This document shows positions 13,687 through 64,000 of a DNA stretch of 64,000 nt, piece by piece (positions within the stretch are counted from its first letter, which is position 1; every line of letters begins with the position of its first letter). The position numbers and the translations under genes were made by a program. This DNA is from Malus domestica (lineage: Eukaryota > Streptophyta > Magnoliopsida > Rosales > Rosaceae), in contig NC_091673.1 in the NCBI RefSeq assembly GCF_042453785.1, positions 4,657,501 to 4,721,500 on the forward strand, in the 5' to 3' direction. Below the pieces are notes generated by a model. That model saw only the letters and a list, made by a program, of their open reading frames with translations. It was not told the origin of the DNA and ran no database searches.

Positions 13687-14343
13687 CTAACTCTGCATCG
13701 TATCATCATCACTGGATTGCTCAGAACCCTCACTTGCTCTCCTGCCATTGTGAACAAAAACCCTAACCGTTATCTCCCCGTGGAGCCTCCTCCTCTCTCC
13801 GCTTGCTTCACCGCCCTTCTTCCCCACCTCCTCCTCCTCAAAAGGCATCGTAAACCTGCAGACCGGGCACGACCCACGAAGTTTCAGCCACCTCTCTATA
13901 CAATCCCCATGAAACCTATGCTTGCAAGGCATCTCCTTCGCCACGCCGTCGACCTCAAACTGCTCCAAGCAAATCGAGCACTCAGACCCGACGTCCGCCT
14001 CGACAATCGTGACACTCGGCATGGCGTCAATCGACGCCTTCGACGCAGGCGGCTGACCGTCCTTGCCACCCAGCCCCTGCAGCAGCGAGTCCAGGTCAGA
14101 ATCGCCTCCGATCACGGCCACGCGTTGGTTGAAAGGATCGACGAGAAATATTCGCTCCCGCGGGGTTCGTCTTTCCGGGTTTTCTCCATCTGGGTTTTCC
14201 AGGTCGAGTGTCGCGGTGGAGGCGGAGGCGACTGCACCTAACATTAAGGGCATGAGCACAGAGAGCTCGCGATCTGGACCCCTCCTCGTGAGCCAGTCGA
14301 AAAGGGAAGCGAACTCAGGCGCAAACTCAGCTTCGGAATCCAT
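13687..14343 (-). CDS. RING-H2 E3 ubiquitin ligase (MPSR1/RING1-like)
   Basis: Single-exon protein of 218 residues, predicted soluble. The RING-H2 finger spans about residues 122-163: CSICLEQF, then a CKHRFHGDC block and CPVCR, giving the C-C-C-H-H-C-C-C ligand order. A Glu/Lys-rich tail and an acidic Ser/Asp end follow. The N-terminus (FASLFDWLTRRGPD) and the stretch RIFLVDPFNQRVAVIGG match the small group that includes Arabidopsis At1g26800 (MPSR1), a cytosolic ligase for misfolded proteins; this assignment is from memory. By family it should transfer ubiquitin from an E2 to substrates. No lesion seen. Its 5' end faces the LTR element starting at 14690, which leaves about 340 bp of original upstream sequence. 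Confidence 0.92.
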   Translation of the reverse strand: MDSEAEFAPEFASLFDWLTRRGPDRELSVLMPLMLGAVASASTATLDLENPDGENPERRTPRERIFLVDPFNQRVAVIGGDSDLDSLLQGLGGKDGQPPASKASIDAMPSVTIVEADVGSECSICLEQFEVDGVAKEMPCKHRFHGDCIERWLKLRGSCPVCRFTMPFEEEEVGKKGGEASGERRRLHGEITVRVFVHNGRRASEGSEQSSDDDTMQS

Positions 14344-14684
14344 GAAACTTCTAGGTTTTTTGCGGATTGAAAGCGTAAACAGAGAAATTTTCAGGGAGAT
14401 TTGGGGAAAACGAAAAATGAGAAAAAATTGGAAAAAATTAGAGAATGGGGTTTAGCGATTGCGAGGGGAATGATTTAAGAGGTGACGGGGGAGAATGACC
14501 ACACAAGGAAGAAAGAAGGGTGTAGAAAGATCTGGAACTTCTGGAGAAAACCTAAATGTATCGGGGTTGTTGAGGAGAAATTTTTTTAAATTACGTGTTT
14601 TTATACAAGTAATGTAAAATTTTACATTTTAAGTTATTAAATTTTTTACATACATATTTCATTATTTGCATAGTAACACGTAAT
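14344..14684. other. Upstream region of the RING gene
   Basis: Holds the presumed leader and promoter of the minus-strand RING gene; AT-rich from 14575 on. No separate gene. Confidence 0.4.
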
Positions 14685-14689
14685 GTATC

Positions 14690-15608
14690 TGTTTAGGTCC
14701 AAAATATTGGTTTGGGCCAAGTGTGGAATCATTCTCGGCCCGGAATGATTTATTGTTAGAGTTCGAGTCGGTCGAGCCCCATTAGGAACAAGGAGCGGCC
14801 TGGATAAGGAAGAGGCGTGGGAAACTCTGCGTCTAACAGAAATCCTGATGTGATAAGGAGTCCCGGTGAGATGAGGAGGTCGAGACGCATTTTGAATACG
14901 GCCTGATAGAAAGGCTAGGTCCAAAATCCTGATGGGAGTAGGAGTATTCGAGATGGTGTTTGATTAGAAGAAGAAGTCTTCATTCGAGTAGGGTTTAACT
15001 ACTCGGATTAACTCTGCTTAGGAAGTATCTGACGCTATAAATAGAAGAGGCTGTGCATTGTTCCAATTCAACACACAACTGCCCTAAGCAAACTCTCTCA
15101 ACAACTTTGAGATTTTTATTTTCTCTTTTCGCTGACACATCTTCTGTTGGCATCAACAGCACTGTGAAAGCAACCGGTGATATCTTCAGTCAGCATAGAT
15201 AGCTCTGTCGCCGTAGAATCAGCCGATCTTGCAGCATCTTCCGTTGGCATCAACAGCACTGCGACGAGGGCAGTTGATTACCTATCTAAGTCTCGGTCGA
15301 GAAGAATTTCCGAATCCTTATTGATCGAGGTCATCTCATTAGCCTTCTCGACGAGGTGAGGTGTTACAGCTTACTAAGCTCGGCGCATTGCACGCCGAGT
15401 TATTTTATGATTGGATACTCTCAAGTGGGATTTAGAGTTCGGCATTCAGACGGCCGAACCAGGTTCACTATTAATACTTATATCCGTTTTGAGTATTTGT
15501 GCCTTTACACTTTGCTGTTAATTCGGCGTGAGTTTACTCTGATGAAAACCATCACTGTGACCGAATCCAGCGACAACGATTCGTGAACTTCGTAAGAATA
15601 GTAGCCAC
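14690..15608 (+). repeat. 5' LTR (incomplete) of the PMD-bearing element
   Basis: Direct repeat of 17917-18862. Starts TGTTTAGGTCC. The promoter-like ctataaatag is at about 15036. It includes a hyphenated palindrome ctcggcg...cgccgag near 15375-15400 that is also present in the 3' LTR. Confidence 0.85.
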
Positions 15609-15699
15609 TGCTTCTACCTTTTTCGATGCTCGGCTGCCTGGGAATTGAAAGCCAATTCAATAACAATAAGGATATATATATCTAAATATATAAAGAAAG

Positions 15700-17400
15700 T
15701 TATATACCATGGGTAGCCTCTTTAGGTTGGGGAGCAGGAGCCTTGTGGGGACGATCGCCAAGGATCTTGTTAATGACATCTTCGATCGGTGCGCTGAAGA
15801 AGCTATGAGTGTATTCTTCCCACCAATCGTCGAAGGTATCGGTGCTAAGAGATTCTGGAGTGACCGGTCGAAGGCGGAGTTTTTGGCATCGCTCATGGAA
15901 CTTATTTTTGGCGTCATTGCACTCATTCTCTAAAGAACCAGGTTCGCGTCCGCAACTTAGGACGAATCGTGAGGAGAGAATGGGGACCGGGTAACCTTGG
16001 AGGTAGCCAAGTTACCGAGCGAGGAAGTTGGGATGATACACTTCCCAACCTGCTCGACGACCATCACAGCCGAGTGGTAGGTCGTAGGTAAGCACGAAAG
16101 ACCCCCAAGATTGAAGAAGGTCAGCATCTTCATCCGCGCCCCACGCTGATGTAGGAAGCCTGATCGACGAAGGGTATTCTCGACGACGACAGATCAGGAG
16201 CTCGTAGTTAGAAAGGTCGTCGAGAGCGAAAAAGTATTTAAACACCTATTCAGCTTGGTGAGGGGGTGTTGGCCGAGAAGCCAGCTGAGGGCCGAGCGCT
16301 TCCGTGGGCGAGAAATCAGCAATCGTTGGCCGAAGAGGGGTGAAGTAGACCTGCAGTCAGAGTTGGAAGACCTAGAGGGGACCATTATGGTGCGGGTCGA
16401 CCTTATCTAGGGTCGTATCGGCCAAGCAGCGTAGGAAATGGGCGAGAATGGTCGGGCTGAGTGTCAGAGTGTGACCGCTAGCTAAGGCTTCGGGCACTGG
16501 CATGTTCTCGACCAAACATTTGTTGGATTTGGTACAACAGATAAATTTGTTGTACCAATAGAAGAGGAAAGCCTCGTGTTCCCCTTCTCGCAGAACCTCT
16601 TCTCATCGGTCGGTAAAATGGAGATAGAGGGTGTTATAGTTGAAGAAGTTCTTATGAAGTTTGTGAAGTTTGTGAACTTCTTCTTTCGAAGGTGTTTGGC
16701 CTTCACCGCTCAGCGTCTCAAGGGCCCATTTGTCGAAAAGCGCTTTCAGGTCAAGGTTCGACGAGTACCCAGAGACGACGGCGTCGATTGGGACCCCAGT
16801 CGGGGAAGTCCCTAAGATGGCAATAATGTCAAGAATGGTGGGACCAATGGGGCCGAGAGGGAGGACCATGTTGTTAATGGCCGAACACTAGAAACATAAG
16901 GCTGCTAGGAGAAGCTCCTTGTCCAGGACAACTTCTATGGATGAGAGATGAATGGCGTCATAGATGCTTAGGGCTTTCCATTGCTTGCCGAAGAGTTTTT
17001 CCATTCGTACGACCCAAGCTGCCCAGGCTGTAGTGGTCGAGGGCCATGAACCTTGAGGCCTTGCCAGGTCCTACTTCGACCATTCAAACCCTTGCAATAA
17101 GGGTGATAGACAGTGCTCCTTGAGAAGTTCAGTGATGGTTAGTGGTACCGCCGCTTTGAAGAGAGGACCAAGGATTTGATGAGGGGTGCTCATGTCACTT
17201 TCAAAACGTATGGTTTTGATCGAACTTCGATCAATAATTTTCTGGCATTGGTCATATTGCTTGGAAAGCTTGGAGATGAAGGAGGCCATTGTAAGTGGGT
17301 TGAAGATGCGACGCAAGAGGAGTTTTCTGGGTTGGGGATTTAAAGACGAAGATCTGGAAGAAGGGGATTCACTGGAGAGCAATGGCAAGGAATTTCAGAG
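15700..17400 (-). pseudogene. Plant mobile domain (PMD) protein remnant inside the LTR element
   Basis: Read on the minus strand, several stretches match the PMD (aminotransferase-like plant mobile domain) proteins common in Rosaceae annotation: MSTPHQILGPLFKAAVPLTI, VLPLGPIGPTILDIIAILGT, FLFYWYNKF, YFFALDDLSN and SSIRLPTSAWG, in the expected N-to-C order. PMD proteins (MAIL1/MAIN in Arabidopsis) act in transposon silencing and genome stability; related copies travel with transposons. This copy is broken in several places. It lies antisense to the LTRs and in the place where coding domains would normally be. Confidence 0.7.
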
Positions 17401-17916
17401 AATTTGAAAGCGTAAAGTATAAATGAAGGAATTTCGGTATTTATAGAATTGTGGAAGGAAGGGCAATCATTTGAAATTCAAAATGAAGGGTAAAATCGAA
17501 CGAAGAATTCGCTAATCATTATGAACATTCAGAGAATCCAATTGAGAAGACCGAGGGTTTCGTGTTTTAGGGGGCGCATGATTGCATGTGGCGACGAGAT
17601 TTACAGTGAAAGATGTTTTGGCATCTGCACGATGTTGAATGGTTCACGAATCAAGGTGGCATGGTTGTTTCAGCAACAAGGTCATGATAGTAAGACGGTT
17701 CAGTGAGCCGCACGCTTTAAATGTCACTATTAGGGGTTAGCCGTGTTAAAGGATGCCACGTGGTGGATTGGTCAGCAGGATCGAGATCGTACAAATCGTG
17801 CTCCATAAATGCGCCTTGGAAATAGAGTATTTGGATTCTGAGTATTAGTTTCGCTTCTTCAAGGTCAGAGCTCGACCGAAGAATTTAGGTCGAAGACCTC
17901 AGAAGCGAGGGGGCAA

Positions 17917-19083
17917 TGTTTAGGCCCAAATATTGGTTTGGGCCGAGTGTGGAATCATTCTCGGCCCATAAGGATTTATTGTTAGAGGTCGTCTTGTTCA
18001 TGGCCGCTTAATTGGAGTCGGTCAAGCCCCATTGGGAAAATGAGCGGCCTGGATAAGGAAGAGGCGTGGGAAACTCTGCGTCTAACAGAAATCCTGATGT
18101 GATAAGGAGTCCCGGTGAGATGAGGAGGTCAAGACGCATTTTGAATACGACCTGATAGAAAGGCTAGGTCCAAAATCCTGATGGGAGTATGAGTATTCGA
18201 GATGGTGTTTGATTAGAAGAAGAAGTCCTCATCCGAGTAGGGTTTCACTACTCAGATTAACTCTACTTAGGAAGTATCTGACGCTATAAATAAAGGAGGA
18301 TGTGCATTGTTCAAAGCCTCTTCCAATTCAACACACAACTACCCTGCGCAAACTCTCTCAACAACTTTGAGATTTTTATTTTCTCTTTTCGCTGACACAT
18401 CTTCTGTTGGCATCAACAGCACTGTGAAAACAACCGTTGATATCTTCAGTTGGCATAGATAACTCTGTCGCCGTAGAATCAGCCGATCTCGCAGCATCTT
18501 CTGTTGGCATCAACAGCACTGCGGCGATGGCGGTTGGTTACCTATCCAAGTCTCGATCGAGAAAGATTTCTGAATCCTTATTGATCGAGGTCATCTCATT
18601 AGCCTTCTCGGCGAGGTGAGGTGTTACAGTTTACTGAGCTCGGCGCATTGCACGCCGAGTTATTTTATGATTGGATACTCTCAAGTGGGATTTAGAGTTC
18701 AGCATTCAGACGGCCGAACCACGTTCACTATTAAGACTTATATCCGCTTTGAGTATTTGTGCTCTTACACTTTAGTGTCGATTCGGCGTGAGTTTACTCT
18801 GACGAATACCATCACTGTGACCGAATCCAACGACGACGATTCGTGAACTTCGTAAGAATAGTAGCCTTGTCTTCAGGTTCGAGAACCCAAAAGGCCGAAA
18901 CGTGTTCTTTCCTTGGTCGCAATCGCAAGACGCAGAAGTCAGCCGCGCACCCAACGCAACATCAACAAATTTTACTCCTCGGCCGACGAGTTGGCACACC
19001 CCGCATTCAACCGAATGACGTAATTAGCTTATAGATTACTCGGCCTGCACGCCACGTAGGCTTGGTAGTTTTTAGGGTCAACA
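17917..19083 (+). repeat. 3' LTR of the PMD-bearing element
   Basis: 1167 bp, TGTTTAGGCCC to GGGTCAACA, followed directly by the GTATC target duplication. It preserves about 220 bp at its 3' end (from about 18863) that has no counterpart in the 5' LTR. Confidence 0.85.
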
Positions 19084-19088
19084 GTATC

Positions 19089-35625: not shown

Positions 35626-35828
35626 TGTTAGGATGCCACATGGCATCATCTGTGATTGACAATTGTACGGTGGATATTAATTAGTTAGAGCTTGTTAGAG
35701 GGAGAAGTCGGTTAGAAGTGAAAAGGTTAGTACTAATAGAGGCTTGTAAAGGAAGATAAGTGTGAATGAAATTGTATTGTTGTTGATCTCTGTGTACAAT
35801 CGTAGAAGACGTAGGGTAGGTTCTAACA
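35626..35828 (+). repeat. 5' LTR of the gypsy element
   Basis: 203 bp, TGTTAGGATGCC to GGTTCTAACA; one mismatch to the 3' LTR. Confidence 0.97.
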
Positions 35829-38800
35829 TTTGGTATCAGCCAGTTCGATCCTCTCAATCCTTCGACGTTGTATGTCGCGGCAAGGGTCGCGTAAGAATAT
35901 GGAGTCCCGCGTATCGAGTCTGGAGACGAAGATTGAAGACGTGCAGCAAGCGCAAGAGAAGGTTCAGGCGAATTTAGAGCTGATTATGGAGCAACTACAA
36001 GCTCTTATGGCCAGGGGTAATGGTGGATCCTTGGGGGATTCTTCAGAAGCAACCTTGGGCGAAAATCAGTTTCAAGATTGCAGGAACCCTAACCCAGTTC
36101 ATCACGAATTTGGGCATAATTTCAATCAGCTACATCAATCACCGTTGTTGAAGTTGGAGTTTCCAAGATTCAATGAAGGTGACGATCCATTAGGGTGGAT
36201 CTACAAGGCTGAGCATTACTTCGATTTTTTCAACATTGACGAATCCAGGAAGGTGAAATTGGCGTCCTTTCACATGGAAGGTGAAGCTTTGCAATGGTTC
36301 CAATGGGCGAGGTGTTTGACGAATTTTCCCAATTGGAAGGATTTCACGGCAGCATTGTGCCATGAATTTGGTCCCTCAGAACTTGAAGATTCGGCCGAAA
36401 ACTTGGTCAAATTACGACAATCAGGCACTCTCAGAGATTATGTCATGGAATTTCGAAGGTTGGCAAATCGCAGACGGGATATCAGCCTTTCTTTACTCAA
36501 ATCTTGCTTTATTAGGGGTCTTCGACCGGAACTACGCCATGATGTTAAACTGTTAAAGCCCAGAGATGTATTGGAGGCTGCCGCTTTTGCCCATCAAATT
36601 GATGCCAAGCTCACGGAGTTGACGGCGAAATCGGGTACTAAAGCTTCTCTTCTCTTGTGCTATAGCCTTGGGAGGATGTGATGTTATACTTGGGGTGCAA
36701 TGGTTGCGTACCTTAGGACCTATATTGTGGGATTTCGATAAATTGTACATGCAGTTCACAAAACATTCTCAGACATTTTGTATCACTAGTCTGGAGGCAT
36801 CTAAGGAAAATCTTTAGGATATTTCTGCTTTCCAAATGCAAAAGCTACTTCATCAGGAGTCAACGGTAGGAGCAGTCTTGTTCCATATTAAAACTGAGGA
36901 AGTGGGGTCATTCCAATTAGATACTGCACAGAAGGACAAGGTTAGTCAGAATCTTACACTGTTTCAACAATAACAGTTGCATAACTTACTGGAAGACTAT
37001 GCGATAGTATTTCAAACTCCCAAGTTCTTGCCACCCCACAGAATTCAGGACCATAGAATTCCACTAATCCATGGCAGCAAACCTCCAAACATTCGACCTT
37101 ATCGATATGGCCCGGTTCAAAAGGCTAAGATTGAGAAATGTGTTGCTGAATTATTGGAGGCAGGATTTATACGAGTGAGCAACAGCCCATATTCTTCTCC
37201 TGTTATCTTAGTAAGGAAAAAAGAGGGAACTTGGCGCATGTGCATGGACTATAGAGGCCTTAATTGCATCACCATTAAAGATAAGTTCCCTATTCCTCTT
37301 ATTGATGAACTGTTGGATGAGTTATTTGGGGCACAATACTTTTCCAAGTTAGACTTGAGGGCAGGTTATCACCAGATTAGAATGCATCCTGATGATGTTG
37401 AAAAGACAGCTTTTAGGACACATGATGGTCATTACGAGTTCTTAGTAATGCCATTTGGTTTGACCAACGCTCCTGCTACTTTCCAATGCCTTATGAATGA
37501 CATCTTTCGACCATATTTGAGAAAGTTTATTCTTGTTTTCTTCGATGATATATTGGTCTATAGCCCTTCTTGGCAACTGCATTTGGATCAATTAAAAATA
37601 GTATTTGAGACATTAAAGGAGCACCACATGTTTGTGAAACAATCGAAGTGTGCATTTGGTCAATCACAAGTAGAATATCTCGGGCATATTGTATCCAAGG
37701 ATGGGGTATCGGCTGACCCTACTAAACTGGATTCTATAGCTCAGTGGCCTATTCCCAAATCAGTGAAAGCTTTGCGAGGGTTTTTGGGATTAACGGGGTA
37801 CTATAGGAAATTTATTCCTCATTTTGGCAAGATCGTAAGTCCATTGACTGCTCTCACACGAAAGGACAGTTTTCATTGGTCGGATGCAGCTACCACAGCT
37901 TTTAATACTCTCAAGAATGCAATGTTATCTCCTCAAGTCCTCGCTTTACCAGATTTTACTAGGCCTTTTGTGATTGAAACTGATGCTTCGGGTCATGGTA
38001 TTGGTGCGGTGCTTTAACAGGGAGGCAAACCAATTGCTTTCACAAGTAAAGCCCTTTGTTTGAGGAATCAAACGCTATCTGCATATGAAAGAGAGATGTT
38101 AGCCATCTTACATGCTGTTCACAAATGGCAGTCCTACTTAGTGGGCAATCACTTCATTATTCAAACTGATCACCACAGTTTGAAATATTTCCTTCAAGGC
38201 AGGGCCCATACTCCAATACAACAGAAATGGGTTACCAAACTTCTCGGGTTCGATTACGAAATTCAATATAAACAAGGTTGTAATAACCAAGCAACAGATG
38301 CCTTATCACGATCTCATTTGAATATTACCAATTTTGTTGATCACCAGCTTGCAGAAATGGAAGTGTTGGCTATTTCTTACCCTTATTCTCAGTGGCTGGA
38401 TGATTTGCGCAGAGATATGGAGAAGGATCCTTGGATAATAACAAAAATCTGAAGTCTCCTGTCTATGGATGACGGTTCTATCACAGTGGCTACATTGAAG
38501 TTTCATGTAGATAACAGTCTTCTTAAATACAAGAACCGCATTGTGCTTAGCCCTACTACTCACTGGAGAAACAAAGTGTTCTATGAAAATCATGCTACAC
38601 CTACGGCTGGTCATGGGGGTTTTTTAAAGACCTATAAGCGGATTTCTAGGTGTTTTTATTGGGAAGGGATGAAGAAGTTTGTGAAGGATATGGTAGCTTG
38701 CTGTTCAACATGTCAACAAAACAAATATGAGACTTTGTCTCCTCCTGGATTATTGCATCCTCTGCCTATACCTACCAAGATTTGGACAGACATATCCATG

Positions 38801-39937
38801 GATTTCATTGTGGACCTTCCTCCATGTAAAGGTAAATTTGTAATCTGGGTCGTGGTGGATCAGTTGTCCAAATATGCTCACTTCACTGCTATTGGTCATC
38901 CATATTCTGCGTCCATGGTTGCTCAACTCTTTGTTGACAATATTTTTAAACTACATGGCATGCCGAAATCAATAGTGAGTGACAGAGATCCGGTTTTCTT
39001 AAGCAAATTTTGGAAGGAGTTCTTTCATCTGCAAGGTTCTTCATTATGTTTCAGTTCTGGTTACCATCCTTAAACAGATGGCCAAACTGAGGTTTTGAAC
39101 CGATGTCTCGAAACATATTTGCGATGCTTTTGTAGCTTGCAGCCAAAGAAATGGGTTTCATGGCTTTCTTGGGCAGAGTGGTCATTCAATACAAGTTTCC
39201 ATTCAGCAACCAAGATGACTCCATTTGAGATTGTATATGGTCAAGCTCCACCAACAGTACAAACCTATGAATCTGGCACCACTAAGGTAGAATCTGTCGA
39301 TCAAGCTTTGACAGAAAGGGATCGAATCTTATCCTTACTCAAGAGCAATCTGGAAGCTGCCCAATGTACGATGAAGGTTCAAGCTGATAAGAACCGGTCT
39401 GAACGAGTATTTGAGGTGAGAGATTCAGTGTATCTAAGATTGGTGCCATACCAGCATTTGTCCCTCGCTTCTCATCCATTTCACAAACTCCAACCACGAT
39501 TTTATGGTCCATTCCCTATTCTATCCAAAGTTGGTCCAGTAGTTTATAAACTCAAGTTACCAGATCACTTTAAACTTCACCCTGTGTTCCATGTGTCTTG
39601 TCTAAAGAAGCATTTGGGTTTGCCTATCCAGCATACTGTCCCATTGCCTGTTATTATCGATTCGGGTATTCTTCAAGATGTTCCGGTGGCCATTCTAGAC
39701 AGACGATTGGTGAAATGCAATAATTCTGCAGTGACTGAAATCCTGGTGCAATGGCAGAACCATTCCAAAGATGATGCCACATGGGAAAACTACCAAGAGC
39801 TCAAACTCAAGTTCCCTGAACTTGTGCAGTTGTGATACAATCTGTTGATGTTGTTTTTTCTATCCATTTCATTGTAATCTGTTGGTTGAGTTTTTGTGTG
39901 TTGTGTTTTGTCGAACTTGTGTTTTGAGGGAGGGTAT

Positions 39938-63215: not shown

Positions 63216-64000
63216 TAAAAGAAAGGGTCGGCAAATGCTTATGTGGATGATTCTCCCAGATCTGAATAATTTAGCCCTCTGTCCAGAGAAAAATAATCAG
63301 AATAATTTAGCCCTCTGTCCCGGATGATTCTCCCAGATCTGATCTCCCCGACTCAAAATGTTTTTGTGGTGGGTCGGCAAATTCAGGACAGTATTGGGAT
63401 TGCCCATGAACATTTCCACTTCCTGAAAGGTAGAAAAGCTAAAGGTAAGTTCGAGATAGGCATAAAGCTTGATATGGAAAAGGCCTATGATAGGGTGGAG
63501 TGGGATTTTCTTGATGCGGTTATGGAAAGAATGGGTTTTTGTAATGATTGGCGGAGGATCATAATGGGGTGTGTGTTTTCGATCCAGTTTAGTCCTTCAA
63601 GGGTCCTCAGACAGGGAGACCCCCTCTCACCCTACTTATTTATCTTGGTTGGAAAAGTTCTATCCCGGATGATTAAGGATGCAATGGATCACAATCTTCT
63701 GAAGGGTGTAAGGTTCGGTGGCTCCGGACCGATTATTTCGCATATGTTCTTTGCGGATGATACTCTTCTATTTCTGAGAGCAAATGAGAAGAATTGCCGC
63801 AATATTATCCAACTCCTTGAATTGTATTGTGAGGTTTCGGGTCAAAAAGTGAACCTTAATAAGTCGAGTGTTTTCTTTGGTGCAAATGTTCCTGTTGACT
63901 GCTCCACTCTTTTAGGCAATATCCTTGGTATGAAGGTGGTTGATAACCCGGGTGCTTATCTGGGTGTCTCGGCTATCTGGGGGTGTTAAAAAAAAAAGAG
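63216..64000 (+). mobile_element. LINE (L1-type) fragment, 5' truncated
   Basis: Non-LTR retrotransposon reverse transcriptase, from just before motif ISPTQNVFVVGRQIQDS through KLDMEKAYDRVEW, LRQGDPLSPYLFIL and the catalytic FADD (HMFFADDTLLF). Coding sequence is recognisable from about 63322; the endonuclease and N-terminal RT are missing, typical 5' truncation. At the right edge the expected frame after YLGVS-IWG shifts at gggggtgttaaaaaaaa, and the window ends inside the element. The 5' junction (63216-63330) is a patchwork of short copies of LINE and target sequence. Confidence 0.9.

Follow-up and report, generated by a model that had tools for sequence, protein, structure and literature searches.

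An antisense plant mobile domain ORF in a Tat/Ogre-like retrotransposon family of apple, and a probable internally deleted copy of it

The window analysed here, a 64-kb stretch of the apple genome (G000:C13:4657501-4721500), contains at 14690-19083 an element in which two LTRs flank a 2.3-kb internal region with a plant mobile domain (PMD) remnant on the minus strand, and GTATC stands at either edge. The first-pass annotation proposed either a non-autonomous element that had captured a silencing regulator or a member of an antisense-ORF lineage, and rated the locus the window's best candidate for an under-described system. Which of these the locus represents was addressed by comparison with its relatives in the genome (651 Mb, 19 contigs). 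The locus is a dead and ordinary descendant of an element type already known, and it is very probably an internally deleted copy of a Tat/Ogre-type family that carries gag-pol in sense and a PMD ORF in antisense orientation.

The target site duplication GTATC occupies 14685-14689 on the left and 19084-19088 on the right. The 3′ LTR (17917-19083, plus strand) is 1167 bp long. By comparison, the 5′ LTR (14690-15606, plus strand) is shortened to 917 bp, corresponds to the first 950 bp of its partner and lacks the final 217 bp. The internal region (15607-17916) contains neither gag-pol nor a primer site, and its purine-rich stretch at 17904-17914 (plus strand) is labelled a candidate polypurine tract from its position directly 5′ of the 3′ LTR. 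Over 915 aligned sites, the two LTRs differ by 42 transitions and 14 transversions (K2P 0.064), equivalent to 2.5 million years at 1.3e-8 substitutions per site per year or 4.6 million years at 7e-9, which suggests an insertion a few million years in the past. With the gag-pol proteins of the family as queries, no gag-pol was found inside the element. The queries match the window only at 37049-38269 (reverse transcriptase, RT; 31% identity) and 38702-39238 (integrase; 27%), and both matches belong to another element. That second element, of the Ty3/gypsy type, spans 35827-39835 on the plus strand, and its RT and integrase frames are ~31% and ~27% identical to those of the PMD-carrying family.

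The antisense ORF extends over 15721-17289 on the minus strand, with its ATG at 17287-17289. Read from 17289 to ~15721, it shares 74% identity with residues 1-520 of the ORF of a sister copy (L042), which is open, and is itself interrupted by seven in-frame stops, with one 9-bp in-frame indel and an end gap. Only one of the six frames from the window matched the Pfam PMD profile, at best with 12.3 bits (cut-off 34.9; E 0.096). By comparison, three of the four antisense frames examined from sister copies pass the cut-off with 96.8, 64.8 and 53.5 bits, and the fourth gave no match. Because the window pieces fall below the cut-off and three of the sister frames above it, the PMD identity is shown only through the relatives; judged by its alignment to them, the block is a PMD pseudogene. 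No solved structure related to the ORF was found at E up to 1. What the first-pass annotation had said of the locus itself, LTRs with a perfect GTATC duplication, no gag-pol between them and a minus-strand PMD remnant, is thus upheld, with corrections.

Genome searches with the LTR and the internal block returned 43 and 45 matches, respectively, each from the best 40 candidates scored. As each query reaches at least 40 candidates, both are repeats rather than products of chance similarity. Ten family copies were fetched for comparison. Within the stretches taken, LTR sequence is found upstream in seven of the ten and downstream in nine, partly incomplete. Sense gag-pol matches and an antisense PMD ORF are present in all ten, and RT in seven; copy 2 matches with integrase only, and copy 1 with gag-region and protease pieces only, the ‘gag’ query being named by position and having no Pfam match. 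In two copies (L025 and L027), the Pfam domains follow the order RT, RNase H, RVT_3 and integrase, with RT before integrase as in Ty3/gypsy elements. The RVT_3 domain (aRH), at residues 219-334 of L025:3378-5180, lies between RNase H and integrase, and an aRH match was obtained in seven of the ten copies. The primer sites of six copies were compared with the end of tRNA-Arg(TCT), giving an exact 18-nt complement in two and one or two mismatches in four; that tRNA end has five exact places in the genome, four of which are called tRNA-Arg(TCT) by ARAGORN and one of which is not called. The window copy itself has no primer site. The domain order, the aRH position, the primer site and the PMD extra ORF together point to a Tat/Ogre-like family of Ty3/gypsy LTR retrotransposons. 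A full-length member measures ~13-14 kb. Its sense strand runs from the 5′ LTR and a tRNA-Arg-type primer site through the gag region and protease to RT, RNase H, aRH and integrase, and a PMD ORF of ~530 codons, encoded in the reverse direction, lies between pol and the 3′ LTR.

The antisense PMD ORF is a regular constituent of this otherwise ordinary gag-pol family. A search with the RT-RNase H frame of one copy gave RT places, the best 89 of 10975 candidates, and the union of two genome searches gave 215 PMD places. At 67 of the 89 listed RT places, the opposite strand carries a PMD place 3.9-6.7 kb downstream, and none of the 215 PMD places has a listed RT on its own strand within 12 kb. 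For the remaining 22 listed RT places, a 1.35-kb stretch 3.8-5.15 kb downstream holds the ORF in 20, always in antisense. The antisense ORF is accordingly present at 87 of the 89 listed RT places, 3.8-6.7 kb downstream, and is antisense in 87 of 87. In the stretches examined, it was not found at C4:1861575 and C6:18952982, and at the former the 3.8 kb preceding the 1.35-kb stretch is also without it; these two places (G000:C4:1861575-1863011, with L072 and L097, and G000:C6:18952982-18954418, with L095) may reflect loss of the ORF, its interruption or a longer distance. Conversely, 148 of the 215 PMD places have no adjoining RT among the 89 listed, and some of them are other PMD genes.

Selection on the ORF was assessed with 15 related ORFs picked as open, one of them cut by the stretch taken. 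The median dN/dS is 0.169 (range 0.08-0.56; 92 of 105 pairs, with dS > 0.01), although, because the ORFs are open by choice and related, neither this ratio nor the p-values are independent. The other frames give 2.1 and 2.4 (forward) and 1.6, 0.20 (0.198) and 2.6 (reverse). The single low reverse value may arise from facing third codon positions, and all reverse frames hold at least seven stops in the three ORFs checked. A codon-position test compared 11 decayed copies (the window copy and the ten fetched) with the 15 open ones, at sites covered by at least 20 sequences and with alleles found in exactly two copies excluded. Changes common to at least three copies number 103/80/361 at codon positions 1/2/3 (p 5e-59; the p-values of this test ignore relatedness). 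Those private to decayed copies are even (121/92/112; p 0.13), as are those private to the window copy (9/6/7; p 0.73), and those private to open copies number 11/7/25 (p 0.002). At two-allele sites, 12 of the 18 window-private changes are transitions of the C-to-T or G-to-A type. The contrast between shared and private changes indicates that the protein was under purifying selection while the family spread, and that inserted copies then drift in neutral decay.

On the strand of the ORF, the TATA motif TATAAATA (17438-17445 in the window copy, minus strand) marks a candidate antisense promoter. It is present in all 17 copies of one alignment and in 10 of the 11 of another, both of which include the window copy, the exact motif being absent from one of the 11. 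For the 16 of the 17 copies whose ATG was located, its distance upstream of that ATG is 145-173 bp. In the 17-copy alignment, the columns of the motif show no variation and are on a par with the best of 560 alignment windows; a second stretch, 38 columns upstream of it, is equally conserved. Farther upstream, CACGTG is retained in 10 of the 11 copies. As the copies are related, this conservation supports a promoter without proving one, and it suggests that TATAAATA, ~150 bp before the ATG, belongs to a dedicated antisense promoter from which full-length copies would transcribe the PMD gene. The conserved TATA would equally fit a role of the RNA itself, in which transcripts from the opposite strand supply double-stranded RNA by which the element limits itself and the ORF is incidental, as has been discussed for antisense ORFs (PMC7264820). 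However, a function of RNA only predicts no third-position excess such as that among the shared changes (103/80/361), and we regard this explanation as improbable.

The absence of gag-pol from the window copy is best understood at its deletion junction. When the junction (15540-15700) was used as query, the window alone spanned it among the best 40 of 793 candidates, and the others matched one side. The LTR side and the internal side of the junction share a 4-bp microhomology, AGCC (15603-15606). Measured against copies 3, 6, 7 and 10, the missing internal sequence amounts to ~8.4-9.5 kb, in addition to the 217 bp of LTR. The simplest reading is that a deletion private to this copy removed the LTR end, the primer site and gag-pol, and recombination at AGCC would account for the loss. 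The LTRs and the target site duplication are intact enough to indicate that the copy once inserted as an LTR element, and it could in principle represent a non-autonomous sub-lineage that shares the deletion and transposes by the enzymes of other elements. This is very unlikely, as no other of the best 40 of 793 candidates spans the junction and the window copy has lost both its primer site and the end of its 5′ LTR, and the sub-lineage was set aside on the former ground.

Next to the element, at 13687-14451 on the minus strand, lies a RING-H2 ORF (zf-RING_2, E 4.8e-15), whose first ATG at 14343 is ~340 bp from the element and toward which the antisense TATA points. From this arrangement, with the element ~340 bp upstream of the ATG and the RING-H2 ORF running in the direction of the TATA, one might suppose that the host has retained the copy as a gene or as a putative promoter for the adjoining gene. 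We give this little credence, no more than the sub-lineage; the seven stops and the evenness of the window-private changes over codon positions rule out a host-kept PMD protein at this locus.

The PMD places compared from outside the family are distant from it. Eight non-family PMD places share 21-31% identity with three family ORFs over alignments of more than 150 residues, and a few short alignments reach 37%. In a tree that carries long-branch warnings and includes no named MAIN/MAIL sequence, the element PMDs group apart in a clade of their own (100/100), with L089 nearest. L089 (G000:C11:19893204-19894289) is a single-copy open frame of 583 aa with a PMD, ~31% identical to the family PMD and ~32-34% identical to its best match elsewhere, and it may be a domesticated copy, a host gene or a relic. 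In the genome sequence search, no close non-family relative of the element PMD was found, the nearest being ~31-34% identical. That a non-autonomous element took up a host PMD gene of the MAIN/MAIL1 type in antisense and now spreads it, as the combination of LTRs and PMD without gag-pol in the window copy might suggest, is therefore the least credible reading of all, since relatives hold gag-pol and the antisense ORF together, the nearest non-family PMD place is only ~31-34% identical, the junction is not common to other copies among the best 40 of 793 candidates, and 87 of the 89 listed RT places have the antisense ORF.

Accordingly, the capture proposed in the first-pass annotation falls, the relatives having both gag-pol and PMD and the deletion in the window looking private, and its other suggestion, an antisense-ORF lineage, is borne out by the same 87 listed RT places, all with the ORF in antisense. 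Its question whether the PMD block is always present, always antisense and under purifying selection receives a divided answer: antisense orientation and purifying selection hold for the family, the block was not found in the stretches examined at two of the 89 listed RT places, and the window copy is a neutral pseudogene. The supposed novelty of the system is mostly answered in print (PMC6317226, PMC5418596, PMC7264820 and PMC11963269).

For the occurrence of PMD in Gypsy elements, the literature cites Steinbauerova et al. 2011. Antisense extra ORFs have already been published, as have the PMD of Ogre elements and, for maize Grande, a promoter that belongs to such an ORF itself. In the relevant part of Neumann et al. 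2019 (PMC6317226), 57% of Ogre elements are reported to have a PMD extra ORF, the Ogre/Retand position of aRH is given as between RNase H and integrase, and extra ORFs of either orientation are recognised as a class; the Ogre primer type is tRNA-Arg (PMC9289625). The apple family resembles these Ogre (Tat) elements in its aRH position and PMD extra ORF, whereas the orientation, selection and promoter of the PMD ORF described here are not stated in that portion of the Ogre account. As described by Ikeda et al. 2017 (PMC5418596), Gypsy elements alone encode PMD-A1 and PMD-A2, to which the PMD of MAIN/MAIL1 is related; by this description, the apple family is alike in having a Gypsy-encoded PMD that is akin to host MAIN/MAIL but separate from them. 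Antisense additional ORFs (aORF-3R) are also known in Grande, RIRE2 and Retand, but these carry TRP28 or other domains in place of the PMD of the apple family (PMC7264820, PMC11963269). Gene23 of maize Grande is described as having its own upstream promoter and encoding a nuclear protein (PMC7264820); by comparison, the candidate promoter of the apple family is known from a sequence motif alone. A narrow literature search found no published antisense ORF of an Ogre retrotransposon in the apple genome. Our analysis adds that, within one genome, the antisense PMD ORF is near-universal among the listed members, is selected as a protein and is preceded by a conserved TATA.

The PMD protein would act for the benefit of the element, with nuclear regulation or anti-silencing as its most likely function, and counter-silencing by TE-encoded PMD has already been suggested (PMC8616336). 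It is conceivable, if rather doubtful, that PMD made from an LTR-independent antisense promoter interferes with the MAIN/MAIL1-PP7L silencing module of the host. If true, the family would encode a retrotransposon anti-silencing factor whose expression could continue after the LTR promoter had been turned off, and the independent antisense promoter would be the delivery route for it. The puzzle of one copy becomes a testable family. Since open-frame copies exist, the protein was selected during spread but not afterwards and the antisense TATA is conserved, the family suits the study of retrotransposon PMD function, and it poses the question whether such proteins oppose or mimic host MAIN/MAIL1.

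Individual copies and the remainder of the window offer some further observations. In L014 (G000:C15:31693800-31699840, minus strand), the primer site and gag-region frames recur after the 3′ LTR, resembling a tandem array of LTR-internal-LTR-internal. Insertions of ~2.0 kb in L010 and ~1.8 kb in L016 (both minus strand) interrupt the 3′ LTR, and LTR sequence of ~10 and ~5 bp, respectively, is repeated at the breaks. No tRNA genes were found in the 64-kb window, and near its right end the frame at 63306-63989 (plus strand) resembles, by eye, a LINE reverse transcriptase.
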